From assembly GCA_029946105.1 (NCBI GenBank), contig JAQSDW010000196.1, positions 44,598 through 108,597 on the forward strand: DNA of 64,000 nucleotides, written 5' to 3'. Both the position numbers and the translations under genes were made by a program. This document shows positions 41,437 through 48,497 of the stretch, one piece after another. Within the stretch, counting starts at the first letter, position 1. Every line of letters begins with the position of its first letter. A model generated the notes under the pieces. The model searched no databases and had not been told where the DNA came from. It was given only the letters and a program-made list of their open reading frames with translations. This DNA is from Reyranella sp. Its GTDB lineage: Bacteria; Pseudomonadota; Alphaproteobacteria; Reyranellales; Reyranellaceae.

Positions 41437-42432
41437 ATGACCACGGTTCCGAATACGGGCAAGAATCGCAAGAAAGTACTGATCGTCGGCCGCATGCCGC
41501 AGGCCGGTATCGACGTCCTGAAGAAGCGCGACGACGTCGATTTCCAGATCCTGAGCGACGACACGGTGCCGAGCCTGCACCCCGCCCTGAAGGACGCCAA
41601 TGCGGTGACCCTGGGCGGCACGGCGTTCCGCCAGGCCGAGCTCGACGCTGCGCCCGGCATGATGGTGGTGGCCCGCCTCGGCGTCGGCTTCGACGCGGTC
41701 GAGATCCCCGCGCTCAACAAGCGCAGGATTCCGCTCATGACCACGGGCATCGCCAATTCCGTGTCGGTAGCCGAGCACGCGATGTACATGCTGCTGGCTT
41801 CGGCCCGGTTGGTGAAGAAATACGACCGCTTCGTGCGCGAAGGCGGCTGGGGCCAGCGGTTGGCCGACCTACCGGCCGATCTTTCCGGCAAGTCGATCCT
41901 GGTGGTCGGCATGGGCCGCATCGGCTCGCGCACGGTCAAGCGTTGCGTCGCCTTCGAGATGGACGTCTCCGTGCTCGATCCCAACATCTCCGAGGCCGAG
42001 ATCAGGAAGGCCGGCGCCACCAAGGTCACCGATCTCAAAGCCACCCTGCCCAAGGTCGATTTCGTCTCGGTCCATTGCCCCAAGGCGCCCGAGACGATCG
42101 ACATGTTCAATACCCAGACCCTGGCGTTGATGAAGCCCGATGCCTTCCTGGTGAACACCGCGCGTGGCGGCATCATCAACGAGGACGCGCTCTATACTGC
42201 CCTCAGCACCGGCAAGCTGCGCGGCGCCGGTCTCGACGTGCTCGACAAGGAGCCGCCGGATCCCGCCAACAAGCTGTTCAGCCTGGAGAACGTGATCTTC
42301 AGTCCGCACATGGCCGGCGTCACCAAGGAAGCGAGCGATCGCATGGCGGTGACCGCCATCGAAAACATCCTGAGTGTCTTCGACGGCCGCCCCAACGCTG
42401 CCCATTGCGTGAACAAGGAAGTGCTGGGCTAG
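41437..42432 (+). CDS. D-isomer 2-hydroxyacid dehydrogenase
   Basis: 331-residue D-2-hydroxyacid dehydrogenase of the SerA/LdhA fold. NAD-binding VVGMGRIGSRT is at about 150-160. The catalytic Arg is in NTARGG, the Glu in DKEPPD and the His in FSPHMAG. The N-terminal domain begins KVLIVGRMPQAGIDVL. It follows an Lrp/AsnC regulator and converges with the selenoprotein gene, whose stop lies only six bases away. Substrate not determined; glyoxylate, hydroxypyruvate or phosphoglycerate are candidates. Confidence 0.9.
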   Translation: MTTVPNTGKNRKKVLIVGRMPQAGIDVLKKRDDVDFQILSDDTVPSLHPALKDANAVTLGGTAFRQAELDAAPGMMVVARLGVGFDAVEIPALNKRRIPLMTTGIANSVSVAEHAMYMLLASARLVKKYDRFVREGGWGQRLADLPADLSGKSILVVGMGRIGSRTVKRCVAFEMDVSVLDPNISEAEIRKAGATKVTDLKATLPKVDFVSVHCPKAPETIDMFNTQTLALMKPDAFLVNTARGGIINEDALYTALSTGKLRGAGLDVLDKEPPDPANKLFSLENVIFSPHMAGVTKEASDRMAVTAIENILSVFDGRPNAAHCVNKEVLG

Positions 42433-42438
42433 AGCGAC

Positions 42439-42657
42439 CTAGCCGGGCACCAGATTCTCGATTTCGTCGTCGGTCGGAAAGCGGCCGGTCTTGCTGCGGG
42501 TGTATTTGAGCGTGCCGTCGACGGTGACGTCGAACTGGCCGGATCTACCGATGCGCAGCTCGATGTCGGCTGCGCCCAGCTTTTCGAGGCGTTCCCTCAC
42601 ACGGAGGGCCTGCGGCTTGTAGCCTCAAGCGCCGCAATATTCGATCAGGACTTTCAT
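42439..42657 (-). CDS. selW: SelW-like (Rdx family) selenoprotein, TGA read as selenocysteine
   Basis: A 72-residue gene missed if TGA is taken as a stop. Minus-strand translation is MKVLIEYCGA-U-GYKPQALRVRERLEKLGAA, followed by DIELRIGRSGQFDVTVDG and TLKYTRSKTGRFPTDDEIEN-LVPG, ending in TAG. Residue 11 is TGA (42627-42625). The segment YCGAUGYK is the redox CxxU motif of SelW, matching animal SelW almost residue for residue, with a thioredoxin-like fold predicted for the Rdx family. The following 39 bases form a SECIS-like hairpin (see the separate entry). The ATG has only a weak AGCAGG site. The reading frame from ATG to TAG is otherwise open and conserved in character. The gene is convergent with the hydroxyacid dehydrogenase and divergent from an aldo/keto reductase. 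Confidence 0.85.
42586..42627 (-). promoter_or_regulatory. Bacterial SECIS-like hairpin directly after the in-frame UGA
   Basis: Counting from the base after UGA, CCCUC at 17-21 pairs with GAGGG at 27-31, closing the five-base loop CGUGU. The loop thus begins 22 bases after UGA with a G in its second position, within the spacing known for bacterial SECIS elements (16-37). A lower stem forms between GAGGC (the last two bases of UGA plus GGC) and GCCUC at 35-39. The lower stem and UGA lie in the same helix, as in formate dehydrogenase SECIS elements. SelB binding is inferred. Confidence 0.75.
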
Positions 42658-42704
42658 CCTGCTAAGGTGGCGGCGTAGGCTCGCGTCATCAAGGGGGACA
42701 TTGG

Positions 42705-43685
42705 ATGAAATACGGACCGCTCGGCCGCTCGGGCCTGATCGTGAGCAGGATCTGCCTCGGTGGCAATTCGTGGGGCGCCAAGGGCCGGCGCGGCTGGGGC
42801 AAGTTCGACGAGGCCGAGGCGCCGGCCTACTTCAAGCGCGCGCTCGATGTCGGCATCACCTTCTTCGACACCGCCGACAACTACAATCTGGGCCGTTCCG
42901 AGGAGATCATGGGCGCCACGCTCATGAAGATGACGAAGCGCGAGGACATCGTGCTGTCGACCAAGGTCGGCATCCGCATGAGCCTGGTCGCCAACGACGT
43001 CGGTACCGGCCGCAAGCATATCATGGCCTCGATCGACCAGCAGCTGAAGCGCCTGCAGACCGACTACATCGACGTCTACCAGCTCCATCGCCTCGATCCC
43101 CATACGCCTGTCGAAGAGACGATGTATACGCTCGATCAGCTCGTGCGCTCGGGCAAGGTCCGTTACATCGGCGGCTCGACCATGCCGGCCTACAAGTTCG
43201 CGCAGATGATCGCGATCGCCGACTGGAAGGGCTATGCGCGGCCCATTGCCATGCAGAACCTGTACAACATGGTCGCGCGTGAGGAGGAGCGCGAGATGAA
43301 CCGACTCTGCCACGAGCAGGGCGTCGGCCTCATTCCGTATTCGCCGCTGGCGCGCGGTTTCCTCGCCGGCAACCGCAGCCAAAGCGGTGGTGGCACCACC
43401 GAGCGGGCGAAGAACGACGCGCAGGTGAAGGCCGGCACCTACCGGGATTGCGACTGGGAGATCGTGAAGCGTCTGAAGAAGATCGCCAAGAGCAAGGGCG
43501 CGGCGCCGGCCCAGGTGGCGCTCGCCTGGCTGCTGCACAAGCCCTACATGGGCGCGCCCATCATCGGCGCCACCGACCTCGACCAGCTCACCTCGGCCGC
43601 CAAGTCGACCGAGATCGCCCTCACGCCGGAGGAATCGAAGCTGCTCGAGCAGCCCTACGAGTTCCGCGTGTCGCCGGAGAACTGA
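42705..43685 (+). CDS. Aldo/keto reductase
   Basis: 326-residue aldo-keto reductase (TIM barrel) with a GGGGA ribosome-binding site. The catalytic tetrad is visible: Asp in FFDTADNYNLG, Tyr in the same motif, Lys in STKVGI and His in YQLHRLDPHTPVEE. NADP contacts are expected in IPYSPLARGFLAG and the C-terminal IIGATDLDQL. The closest pattern is the Tas/YajO-like group. It lies divergent from the selenoprotein gene, 47 bases apart. Confidence 0.9.
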   Translation: MKYGPLGRSGLIVSRICLGGNSWGAKGRRGWGKFDEAEAPAYFKRALDVGITFFDTADNYNLGRSEEIMGATLMKMTKREDIVLSTKVGIRMSLVANDVGTGRKHIMASIDQQLKRLQTDYIDVYQLHRLDPHTPVEETMYTLDQLVRSGKVRYIGGSTMPAYKFAQMIAIADWKGYARPIAMQNLYNMVAREEEREMNRLCHEQGVGLIPYSPLARGFLAGNRSQSGGGTTERAKNDAQVKAGTYRDCDWEIVKRLKKIAKSKGAAPAQVALAWLLHKPYMGAPIIGATDLDQLTSAAKSTEIALTPEESKLLEQPYEFRVSPEN

Positions 43686-46542: not shown

Positions 46543-47142
46543 TCAATGCGTCGATGAAGGACCCCACAGCCGCTCCAGGCGGCGGTCGCGGCCGCATGTC
46601 CAGCGGTAGTAGGTGTAGGCGGTCGGATTCTTGCGGTAGTAATCTTGGTGATAGGCCTCGGCCGGATAGAATTTGGCCGCCCGCAGGACCTCGGTGACGA
46701 TCCGTCCCGGCAACTTGCCTGATTTCTCCAGCGCTGCCTTCGAGGCCTCGGCCAGCGCGCGCTCGCGATCGTCGGTCACGAAGATGGCGGCGCGGTATTG
46801 CGGGCCCTTGTCGCAGAACTGCCCCCCGGCATCCAAGGGATCGATGTTGCGCCAGAAGACTTCCAGCAACTGCTCGTAGCTGACGCGCGCCGGATCGTAG
46901 TCGACCTGCAGGGCCTCGTAGTGGCCGGTGCGGCCGGCCGAGACCTGTTCATAAGTCGGATCGATCTTGGCGCCGCCGGTATAGCCGGAGGTGGTCGCCA
47001 GCACGCCATCGACCTTGTCGAACGGCGGCTCCATGCACCAGAAGCAGCCGCCCGCGAAGATGGCGACGGCGCGCGTCTGAGCTCCGGCCGAAGCCAGGGT
47101 GACCGCGACCAGCAGTGATGCGAGTAACGCCAGCTTCCTCAT
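46543..47142 (-). CDS. msrA: Exported peptide-methionine (S)-S-oxide reductase MsrA
   Basis: 199 residues from ATG 47142 with a Sec signal peptide (MRKLALLASLLVAVTLASAGAQ). The catalytic motif GGCFWCMEPPF places the nucleophilic Cys at 33, plus a second at 36. Other conserved parts are GYTGGAKIDPTYEQVSAG, GHYEALQVDYDP and the C-terminal FYPAEAYHQDYYRKNP. Its ATG overlaps the msrB stop (ATGA), so the two are translated together. Acts in the periplasm to repair methionine sulfoxide. Confidence 0.92.
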   Translation of the reverse strand: MRKLALLASLLVAVTLASAGAQTRAVAIFAGGCFWCMEPPFDKVDGVLATTSGYTGGAKIDPTYEQVSAGRTGHYEALQVDYDPARVSYEQLLEVFWRNIDPLDAGGQFCDKGPQYRAAIFVTDDRERALAEASKAALEKSGKLPGRIVTEVLRAAKFYPAEAYHQDYYRKNPTAYTYYRWTCGRDRRLERLWGPSSTH

Positions 47143-47627
47143 GAGCCTGCCGCCGTCGGCTTGAAGGCCATGGCCACGCCGTTCATGCAGTAGCGCAGGC
47201 CGGTGGGCTTGGGCCCGTCGTTGAAGACGTGGCCGAGATGGCCGCCGCAGCGACGGCAGTGGACTTCGGTCTGCTTCATGAACAGGAACGTTTCGCTGCG
47301 CGTCGCGATGGCGCCCTCGAGCGGCTGCCAGAAGCTCGGCCAGCCGGTGCCGCTGTCGAACTTGGTGGTCGAGGCGAACAGCGCCAGCTCGCAGCCGGCG
47401 CAATGATACGTGCCGGCGCGCTTCTCGCGGTCGAGCGGGCTCGACCCGGGCCGTTCGGTCTGGGCCTGGCGCAGCACCGAATATTGGGTGGGCGTCAGCA
47501 GGCGGCGCCATTCCTCGTCGCTGCGGACCACCTCGAAGACCTCGGCGCGCGCGCCGGGCGAAGCCAGGCCCGCTGCCGCCAGAATGGTGCCCGCCAGGGT
47601 GAATTGTCGCCGGTTTGGCCGGATCAT
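47139..47627 (-). CDS. msrB: Tat-exported peptide-methionine (R)-S-oxide reductase MsrB
   Basis: 162 residues from ATG 47627. The N-terminus MIRPNRRQFTLAGTILAAAG has a twin-arginine motif with a hydrophobic run and a GARA cleavage site (about residue 28). Zinc-binding cysteines are in YHCAGCELALF and VHCRRCGGHLGHVF. The catalytic Cys lies in RYCMNGVAMAF. Coupled to msrA by a four-base overlap. Together they repair both sulfoxide diastereomers outside the cytoplasm. Confidence 0.92.
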   Translation of the reverse strand: MIRPNRRQFTLAGTILAAAGLASPGARAEVFEVVRSDEEWRRLLTPTQYSVLRQAQTERPGSSPLDREKRAGTYHCAGCELALFASTTKFDSGTGWPSFWQPLEGAIATRSETFLFMKQTEVHCRRCGGHLGHVFNDGPKPTGLRYCMNGVAMAFKPTAAGS

Positions 47628-47735
47628 GATCGTCGCTCCTCTCCGCGAAACACTACCAAGATGTGGGGACTGTCCTTCATCAACGGATGTCACTTTGTCG
47701 TGCGGGCGCAAAATGAGCGCGCTAAGCTCGCCACC

Positions 47736-48497
47736 ATGAAACTCAAGGGTCAGGTCGCCATCGTTACCGGCGGTGCCTCGGGCATCGGCGCCGCATCGGC
47801 CCGCCTGTTCGCCGCCGAAGGGGCGAAGGTGGCGCTGGTCGATCAGGATGCCGTCGGGCTGGGCCAGGTCGCGGCCGAGATCGACGGCAAGGGTGGTATC
47901 GCGATGACCATCACCGCCGACGTGAGCTCCGACCTGCAGGCGCGCGAAGGCGTGGCCAGCGTCATGGAAAAATGGGGCCGTATCGACGTGCTGCTGACCG
48001 CCGCGGGCGCCTCGACTGGCGGCACCGTCGACACGATCGAGGAAGCGGCGTGGGATCGCACCTTCGCCATCAACGTCAAGGGCACCTATCTCTGGATCCA
48101 CTACGCAATCGTCCCGATGATCGCCGCCGGGTCGGGCGCCATCGTCACCATCGGCTCGCAGCTCGCGCAATCGAGTCCGGGCAAGAACGCGGCCTACATC
48201 GCCTCCAAGGGCGCCATCGCCTCCCTCACCAAGACCATCGCGGTCGATCACGCGGCCCAGGGCATTCGCGTCAACGCGCTGATGCCGGGCGTCATCGACA
48301 CGCCGATGCCCGCCAAGTCGCTGAAACGCTACGCCGATCCCGAGGCGATGCGCACCTTCTGGAAGCACCGCCATCCCATGGGCCGCATCGGCCAGCCGGA
48401 GGAGGTGGCCAAGGCCGCGCTGTTCCTGGCCTGCGACGATTCATCGTTCGTCACCGGCACGCTGCTGTTCGTCGACGGCGGCTGGACGGCGCACTGA
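47736..48497 (+). CDS. Short-chain dehydrogenase/reductase
   Basis: 253-residue classical SDR from ATG 47736. The TGGASGIG coenzyme motif, VLLTAAGAS in place of NNAG, SQLAQSSPGKNAAYIASKGAI with the YxxxK catalytic pair, and the C-terminal FVTGTLLFVDGGWTAH are visible. It shares one base with the start of the PhyH gene (TGATG) and starts a four-gene operon of SDR, PhyH, deacetylase-like and luciferase-like enzymes. Confidence 0.88.
   Translation: MKLKGQVAIVTGGASGIGAASARLFAAEGAKVALVDQDAVGLGQVAAEIDGKGGIAMTITADVSSDLQAREGVASVMEKWGRIDVLLTAAGASTGGTVDTIEEAAWDRTFAINVKGTYLWIHYAIVPMIAAGSGAIVTIGSQLAQSSPGKNAAYIASKGAIASLTKTIAVDHAAQGIRVNALMPGVIDTPMPAKSLKRYADPEAMRTFWKHRHPMGRIGQPEEVAKAALFLACDDSSFVTGTLLFVDGGWTAH

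Follow-up and report, generated by a model that had tools for sequence, protein, structure and literature searches.

A predicted SelW-like selenoprotein gene with a coding-region SECIS hairpin in Reyranella and allied Alphaproteobacteria

The SelW-like gene and its product

The window, which is the whole 64,000-nt stretch of Reyranella sp. DNA analysed here, contains a short SelW-like gene between an aldo/keto reductase gene and a 2-hydroxyacid dehydrogenase gene (Table 1). Re-reading the letters reproduced the frame given in the original prediction, from ATG 42657 to TAG 42439 with a single TGA at codon 11 within YCGAUGYK. The product begins MKVLIEYCGAUGYKPQ, where U marks the predicted selenocysteine (Sec).

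Table 1. Features of the SelW locus (positions in the window)
Feature	Position	Strand	Remarks
D-isomer specific 2-hydroxyacid dehydrogenase (PF02826/PF00389)	41437..42432	plus	convergent neighbour
SelW-like gene, 72 residues, predicted Sec at position 11	42439..42657	minus	Rdx and TIGR02174 matches
Predicted bacterial SECIS hairpin	42594..42608	minus	arms 42608-42604 and 42598-42594, loop 42603-42599
C-G-A-U redox motif, codons 8-11	42625..42636	minus	UGA = 42627-42625
Divergent intergenic region, 47 bp	42658..42704		common to SelW and the aldo/keto reductase
Aldo/keto reductase (PF00248)	42705..43685	plus	divergent neighbour

Alignment to Pfam confirms the proposed membership in the SelW family. 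With Cys substituted for Sec, the product scores 58.7 bits against Rdx (PF10262; E = 6.5e-16, curated cut-off 22.6) and 44.6 bits against TIGR02174 (cut-off 34.2). An alignment to NF041051 covers residues 3–70 at 70.9 bits; because this score is below the cut-off of 88, the product lies outside that equivalog. At E ≤ 0.001 the gene is the single Rdx match in the 5.62-Mb assembly, and the TGA is its sole internal stop. A sequence search of the PDB returned MIEN1 (2ljk, E = 7.9e-8), mouse SelW (2npb, E = 3.8e-6) and Atu0228. The predicted structure (AlphaFold, pLDDT 94.4, pTM 0.83) has a SelW fold that matches solved SelW-like proteins: its best fold matches include the SelW-related 2fa8 (TMq 0.87) and 2p0g, and mouse SelW (2npb) and MIEN1 (2ljk) match with TMq values of 0.65 and 0.71, respectively. 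A strand (residues 2–8) precedes a helix (residues 14–26) in the model, which puts the C-x-x-U where the first helix begins.

Residues C8, G40, F60 and P61 and the Sec column are among the columns that are invariant across 30 aligned sequences. Conservation also extends 3′ of the TGA. In this part of the gene, differences fall most often at third codon positions (413, 326 and 679 at positions 1, 2 and 3; 55 rows), and the median dN/dS is 0.325 (range 0.082–1.348, 54 rows).

A constrained hairpin downstream of the UGA

The predicted SECIS hairpin has a 5-bp stem (CCCUC/GAGGG) and the loop CGUGU, in which G is second and is followed by U. The UGA-to-loop distance is 21 nt, and the loop G lies 22 nt after the UGA. 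Stem, loop sequence, position of the G and the 22-base spacing were all as originally described. The apical 17 nt fold unusually well (−7.5 kcal/mol, z −3.29, 1 of 200 shuffles as good), but the whole 39 nt from the UGA are unremarkable (−13.0 kcal/mol, z −0.77, 44 of 200 shuffles as good). Bacterial SECIS elements have been delimited by a loop of 3–9 nt, a stem of 4–16 bp, a UGA–loop distance of 16–37 nt, a G in loop positions 1–2 and an energy of at most −7.5 kcal/mol (PMC13188914). The hairpin is within these limits as they are given in that source, with the bare 17-nt form exactly at the energy limit. An Rfam scan at a permissive threshold found nothing relevant at the hairpin, and its one snoRNA match was far below the gathering threshold.

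Energy alone is unconvincing evidence for the hairpin; comparison across relatives is what convinces. Among 59 distinct TGA-containing rows, codons 18–21 are nearly fixed in their synonymous choices: CTC occurs in 59/59, CGT in 53 and CGG in six (CGC in none), GTG in all 57 rows with Val at codon 20, and AGG in all 52 rows with Arg at codon 21. Seven nearby genes of the window use CTC for 72 of 222 Leu codons, and CGC and AGG for 86 and 5 of 136 Arg codons, respectively. In the 56 rows that align without an indel, synonymous differences amount to 0.057 in codons 17–21 versus 0.226–0.352 in four other stretches.

The stem itself is paired in 251 of 255 cells across 51 distinct sequences of the UGA plus 42 nt, which are related rows, so that these counts are not independent events. 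Sliding the 3′ arm by 1–3 positions either way, as a control, leaves 105–152 of the 255 cells paired. Two stem positions have changed on both sides: a C-G pair became G-C in L035, L174 and L175, and a U-A pair became G-C in L172 through Leu18→Arg together with AGG→CGG at codon 21. The four unpaired cells are one C-A mismatch at a single pair (4 of 51 hairpins), carried by genus g3 loci, L118 and L120. The hairpin codons are thus frozen beyond what the protein needs, which is a constraint at the RNA level.

Relatives keep TGA at the Sec position

The original prediction named an outcome that would have counted against it, namely Cys homologues with TGC at this codon and a frame that is not conserved after it. 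The relatives look different: all 89 loci of the SelW group that were read as DNA have TGA at the Sec position, never TAA or TAG. Among 146 related genomes, 61 encode an Rdx match, of which 58 hold one TGA and three hold none; 30 of the 61 were read as loci, in addition to the source genome (L001). Within the family, SelW is present in 54 of 75 genomes, every one with TGA. Scanning named genomes yielded 55 loci, among them those of Reyranella soli, R. massiliensis, Enhydrobacter aerosaccus and Vineibacter terrae. Of these, 53 fit the motif and 53/53 read TGA; L123 and L126, which did not fit the motif filter, were left out of the count. Many of the named-genome loci repeat others in the sample, and we therefore also give distinct counts.

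A wider sample of 385 genomes across the class yielded 46 Rdx matches: 28 with one TGA, 17 with no stop and one with TAA. Fourteen of the 28 TGA matches and all 18 non-TGA matches were read as DNA. The TGA group scores 43–66 bits and the other Rdx matches 94–117 bits. The 18 non-TGA genes have Cys codons and belong to a different Rdx subfamily; in most of them WLLRA comes directly after the C-x-x-C. In L167 (G410:C179), a Rdx gene of the Cys type, a TAA interrupts the frame just 5′ of the CxxC; this may be a pseudogene or reflect a sequencing error.

Public protein sets hold the gene largely in truncated form. A search of a 5.8-billion-protein set gave 467 hits, and 112 of the best 120 are 51–57 residues long, most of them beginning at the GTG of codon 20, which lies within the hairpin. 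A number of these database fragments are named ‘predicted Rdx family selenoprotein’ by their JGI source. The gene had been described as unannotated; this holds only in part, since public sets contain it and partly name it, but most of the entries are cut to 51–57 residues. In this search, any Cys orthologue of full length would score above the fragments. Three full-length proteins do top the best 120 of the 467 hits; at the Sec column P0002 has Trp, P0003 has Cys and P0004 has Gly, and each of the three comes from a single contig. Because a sequencing error or a converted U is indistinguishable from a real replacement, we say that SelW orthologues ‘almost never’, rather than ‘never’, have Cys at this column. 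Another database entry, P0106, is a 115-residue protein in which a flavodoxin domain is followed by the C-terminal part of SelW; it sits on a 1.25-kb contig and is possibly an assembly artefact.

Genomic neighbourhood, gain and loss

Genomes either have the entire SelW gene or lack it altogether. Eleven of 12 SelW-free Reyranella genomes searched contain the aldo/keto reductase, and in 11/11 it lies directly beside the hydroxyacid dehydrogenase; a search of these junctions for SelW-like stretches found none at E up to 1. The adjoining neighbours and the lack of a remnant are the basis for this conclusion. As the neighbours stay where SelW is gone, their conservation says little about SelW function. 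Several of the clean SelW-free junctions (L139–L149) carry an inverted repeat, GCGGCATCGGTCGA...CCGGTGCCGC, at the site. Genes for MsrA (PMSR) and MsrB (SelR domain) lie side by side on the minus strand of the window, a few kb from SelW (46543–47511 and 47139–48374).

The region upstream of SelW depends on context. In the source genome, the 47-bp intergenic region has no Shine-Dalgarno-like sequence before the SelW ATG, and a CCACCTT box lies 6 nt 5′ of this codon. Wherever a divergent aldo/keto reductase lies 46–51 bp away, a CCA[C/T/A]NTT box precedes the ATG by 6–7 nt (43/43), and a pattern search of these 43 distinct upstream regions found a Shine-Dalgarno-like sequence in none (0/43). SelW genes in other contexts have a Shine-Dalgarno-like sequence in 20/24 cases and the box in 0/24. 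A search for a sigma-70-type promoter near SelW found none. An antisense gene and a tiny upstream frame were considered as sources of the CCACCTT box.

Selenocysteine machinery and co-occurrence

The presence of SelW led to the expectation of a complete Sec machinery in the genome, most of which was found. The gene for tRNA-Sec (selC; 71.4 bits, SeC tca by ARAGORN) lies behind selB (454 bits) on contig C80, and selD (297.7 bits) is on C111. The fourth gene, selA, whose absence the original prediction had listed among the outcomes that would refute it, was not found above the cut-off in the source assembly. A second match above the tRNA-Sec cut-off (C100, 49.4 bits) proved to be a tRNA-Ser(tga) by ARAGORN, and SelD (L152, G000:C111) is encoded within a 748-residue open frame with an extra N-terminal part. 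The genome also contains a TIGR01553-type FdhA gene with a single in-frame TGA (G000:C203:2835-5885), predicted to be its second selenoprotein gene; its TIGR01591 FdhA has no TGA.

In the relative G022 the gene order is fdhA, selA, selB. In the source assembly, C203 ends ∼300 bases beyond the last match to the fdh-side genes of G022, and C80 starts 37 bases before selB. As the contigs break where relatives carry selA, the likeliest place for the missing gene is the assembly gap between C203 and C80. This position is inferred, and the ends of the two contigs gave no convincing selA piece: the best matches in seven usable frames had E values of 0.03–0.06 over 7–50 residues and are taken as chance. 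The selA–selB spacing is ∼700–800 bp in many relatives and tens of bases in others.

Across relatives, SelW and the Sec machinery occur together. In the family, 69 of 75 genomes have selA and 72 of 75 have selB; the six genomes lacking selA are draft assemblies by their contig counts. Among the 146 related genomes, selB is present in 55 of 58 with a TGA-containing SelW versus 26 of 88 others (Fisher p = 2e-16, kinship ignored), and outside the family in 3 of 4 versus 6 of 67 (p = 0.005, kinship likewise ignored). The three TGA-SelW genomes without a selB match are G041 (60% complete, with UGA-FdhA but no selB), G047 (96% complete, about 770 contigs) and G086 (77% complete). None of the three Cys-type Rdx genomes among the 146 has a selB match.

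The 81 genomes with selB divide into 33 with both SelW and a TIGR01553-type FdhA, 22 with SelW alone, 18 with FdhA alone and eight with neither. The FdhA set includes two partial matches without TGA (G057 and G073), and the search scored the best five first-look candidates per genome, so an FdhA may have been missed. The 22 SelW-only genomes are defined against TIGR01553-type FdhA alone, rather than against all selenoproteins. Two of the genomes (G016 and G058) are single contigs with selA, selB and SelW and no TIGR01553 match. We tentatively suggest that the SelW of Reyranella and allied Alphaproteobacteria is a Sec-only gene, gained or lost whole and almost never converted to Cys, which in a sizeable part of the group may sustain the Sec machinery instead of FdhA. 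We regard this as possible rather than probable, because the eight selB genomes with neither gene imply that other selenoproteins exist or that pieces are missing.

Interpretation

Bacterial decoding of UGA by SelB and tRNA-Sec, with a hairpin downstream of the codon, is established. We assign a probability of roughly 0.93 to the reading that the locus is a SelW/Rdx gene, with Sec predicted at UGA codon 11, and that its product is likely a selenol/thiol oxidoreductase. The family score, the conservation of TGA and the paired stem changes support the original proposal of a SelW with a Sec position and a SECIS. We infer from these sequence comparisons that Sec is indeed inserted at the UGA: SelB and tRNA-Sec would decode codon 11 with help from the hairpin just downstream. 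Motif and fold suggest that the small protein would act as a selenol/thiol oxidoreductase through its Cys-x-x-Sec. Sec11 may pair with Cys8 or with the thiol of a substrate in a selenenylsulfide, and glutathione or another cellular thiol could turn it over.

It is scarcely credible that the UGA is an ordinary stop, either in a decayed SelW or in a gene from which only the piece beginning at GTG codon 20 is made. In favour of this reading, proteins of 51–57 residues dominate the best 120 of 467 database hits, and the source genome has no Shine-Dalgarno-like sequence before the ATG. However, codons 1–10 and the UGA are conserved along with the rest of the gene, TAA or TAG replaces the UGA in none of the 89 loci, and the frozen synonymous codons and paired changes fit a SECIS. 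A fragment from codon 20 would also be without Cys8 and the opening strand of the fold, and a decayed gene would not keep its median dN/dS of 0.325. A true SelW selenoprotein gene that is silent in this strain through real loss of selA is very improbable as well. The sub-threshold selA search and the contig ends devoid of selA pieces agree with a loss, but selB, selC, selD and the UGA-FdhA gene are all intact in frame. Moreover, selA occurs in all family genomes except the six drafts, and G022 carries it between fdhA and selB, both of which lie near contig ends here.

An unlikely alternative of another kind accepts Sec but questions its use: the protein may not be mainly catalytic, and may instead bind a partner through its CxxU face, as mammalian SELENOW is reported to bind 14-3-3. 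Next to SelW we saw no gene for an electron donor or a substrate, the neighbours stay in place where SelW is absent, and an interaction of SELENOW with 14-3-3 that involves the U of the motif has been described (PMC8508763). On the other hand, the 30 aligned sequences show no variation at Cys8 or in the Sec column, which would fit a redox pair. In PMC1088965 SelW-like proteins are said to have an unclear function, CXXU is taken to suggest a redox role and an interaction with glutathione is noted; neither point decides between partner binding and the oxidoreductase reading.

Comparison with known SelW-like proteins

SelW-like proteins are among the commonest bacterial selenoproteins (PMC1088965, PMC2398784, PMC13188914), and SELENOW-like is listed as predicted with high confidence (PMC13188914). 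A 2006 survey counted ten bacterial SelW-like selenoproteins and reports that their Cys homologues are very scarce or absent in Sec-using organisms (PMC1794560); ocean samples gave 427 SelW-like selenoproteins and 56 Cys homologues (PMC2398784). Our searches of an open-licence library showed no title on SelW in Reyranella among those listed, the one paper that came up for the genus together with selenocysteine was unrelated judging by its title and the opening of its abstract, and ‘Reyranella’ is absent from the main text of PMC13188914, PMC12013277, PMC5029168 and PMC8124441. Since the kind of protein is known and the scarcity of Cys forms was noted in 2006, the host group is a modest addition. 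The comparative support for a SelW selenoprotein across a group of Alphaproteobacteria is strong, and most entries for this protein in public sets are fragments that lack the active-site half. The clade, in which dozens of sister genomes have SelW or lack it and the SelW-free junction is clean, is suited to asking why Cys so rarely replaces Sec in this protein and what role SelW has in bacteria.

The gene resembles described bacterial SelW-like selenoproteins in its PF10262 family, its CxxU, its in-frame UGA and its SECIS within the coding region (PMC1088965, PMC2398784, PMC1794560, PMC13188914). It differs in its host, an alphaproteobacterium: the sole selenoprotein of the Sec-decoding Alphaproteobacteria covered by the 2006 survey is FdhA (PMC1794560). 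That statement is dated by Afipia carboxidovorans, an alphaproteobacterium with three known selenoprotein genes (PMC12013277). The Campylobacter-type SelT/SelW/SelH (seleno)protein model NF041051 aligns over nearly the entire product, yet the score is below its cut-off. Cys-type Rdx proteins such as Agrobacterium Atu0228 (2fa8) share its family and fold; those of the class sample are set apart from the TGA group by C-x-x-C and by their higher Rdx scores. Mammalian SELENOW (2npb) and MIEN1 (2ljk) are alike in sequence and predicted fold, but the eukaryotic SECIS lies in the 3′ UTR (PMC1088965), whereas the predicted element here lies inside the coding region just after the UGA.
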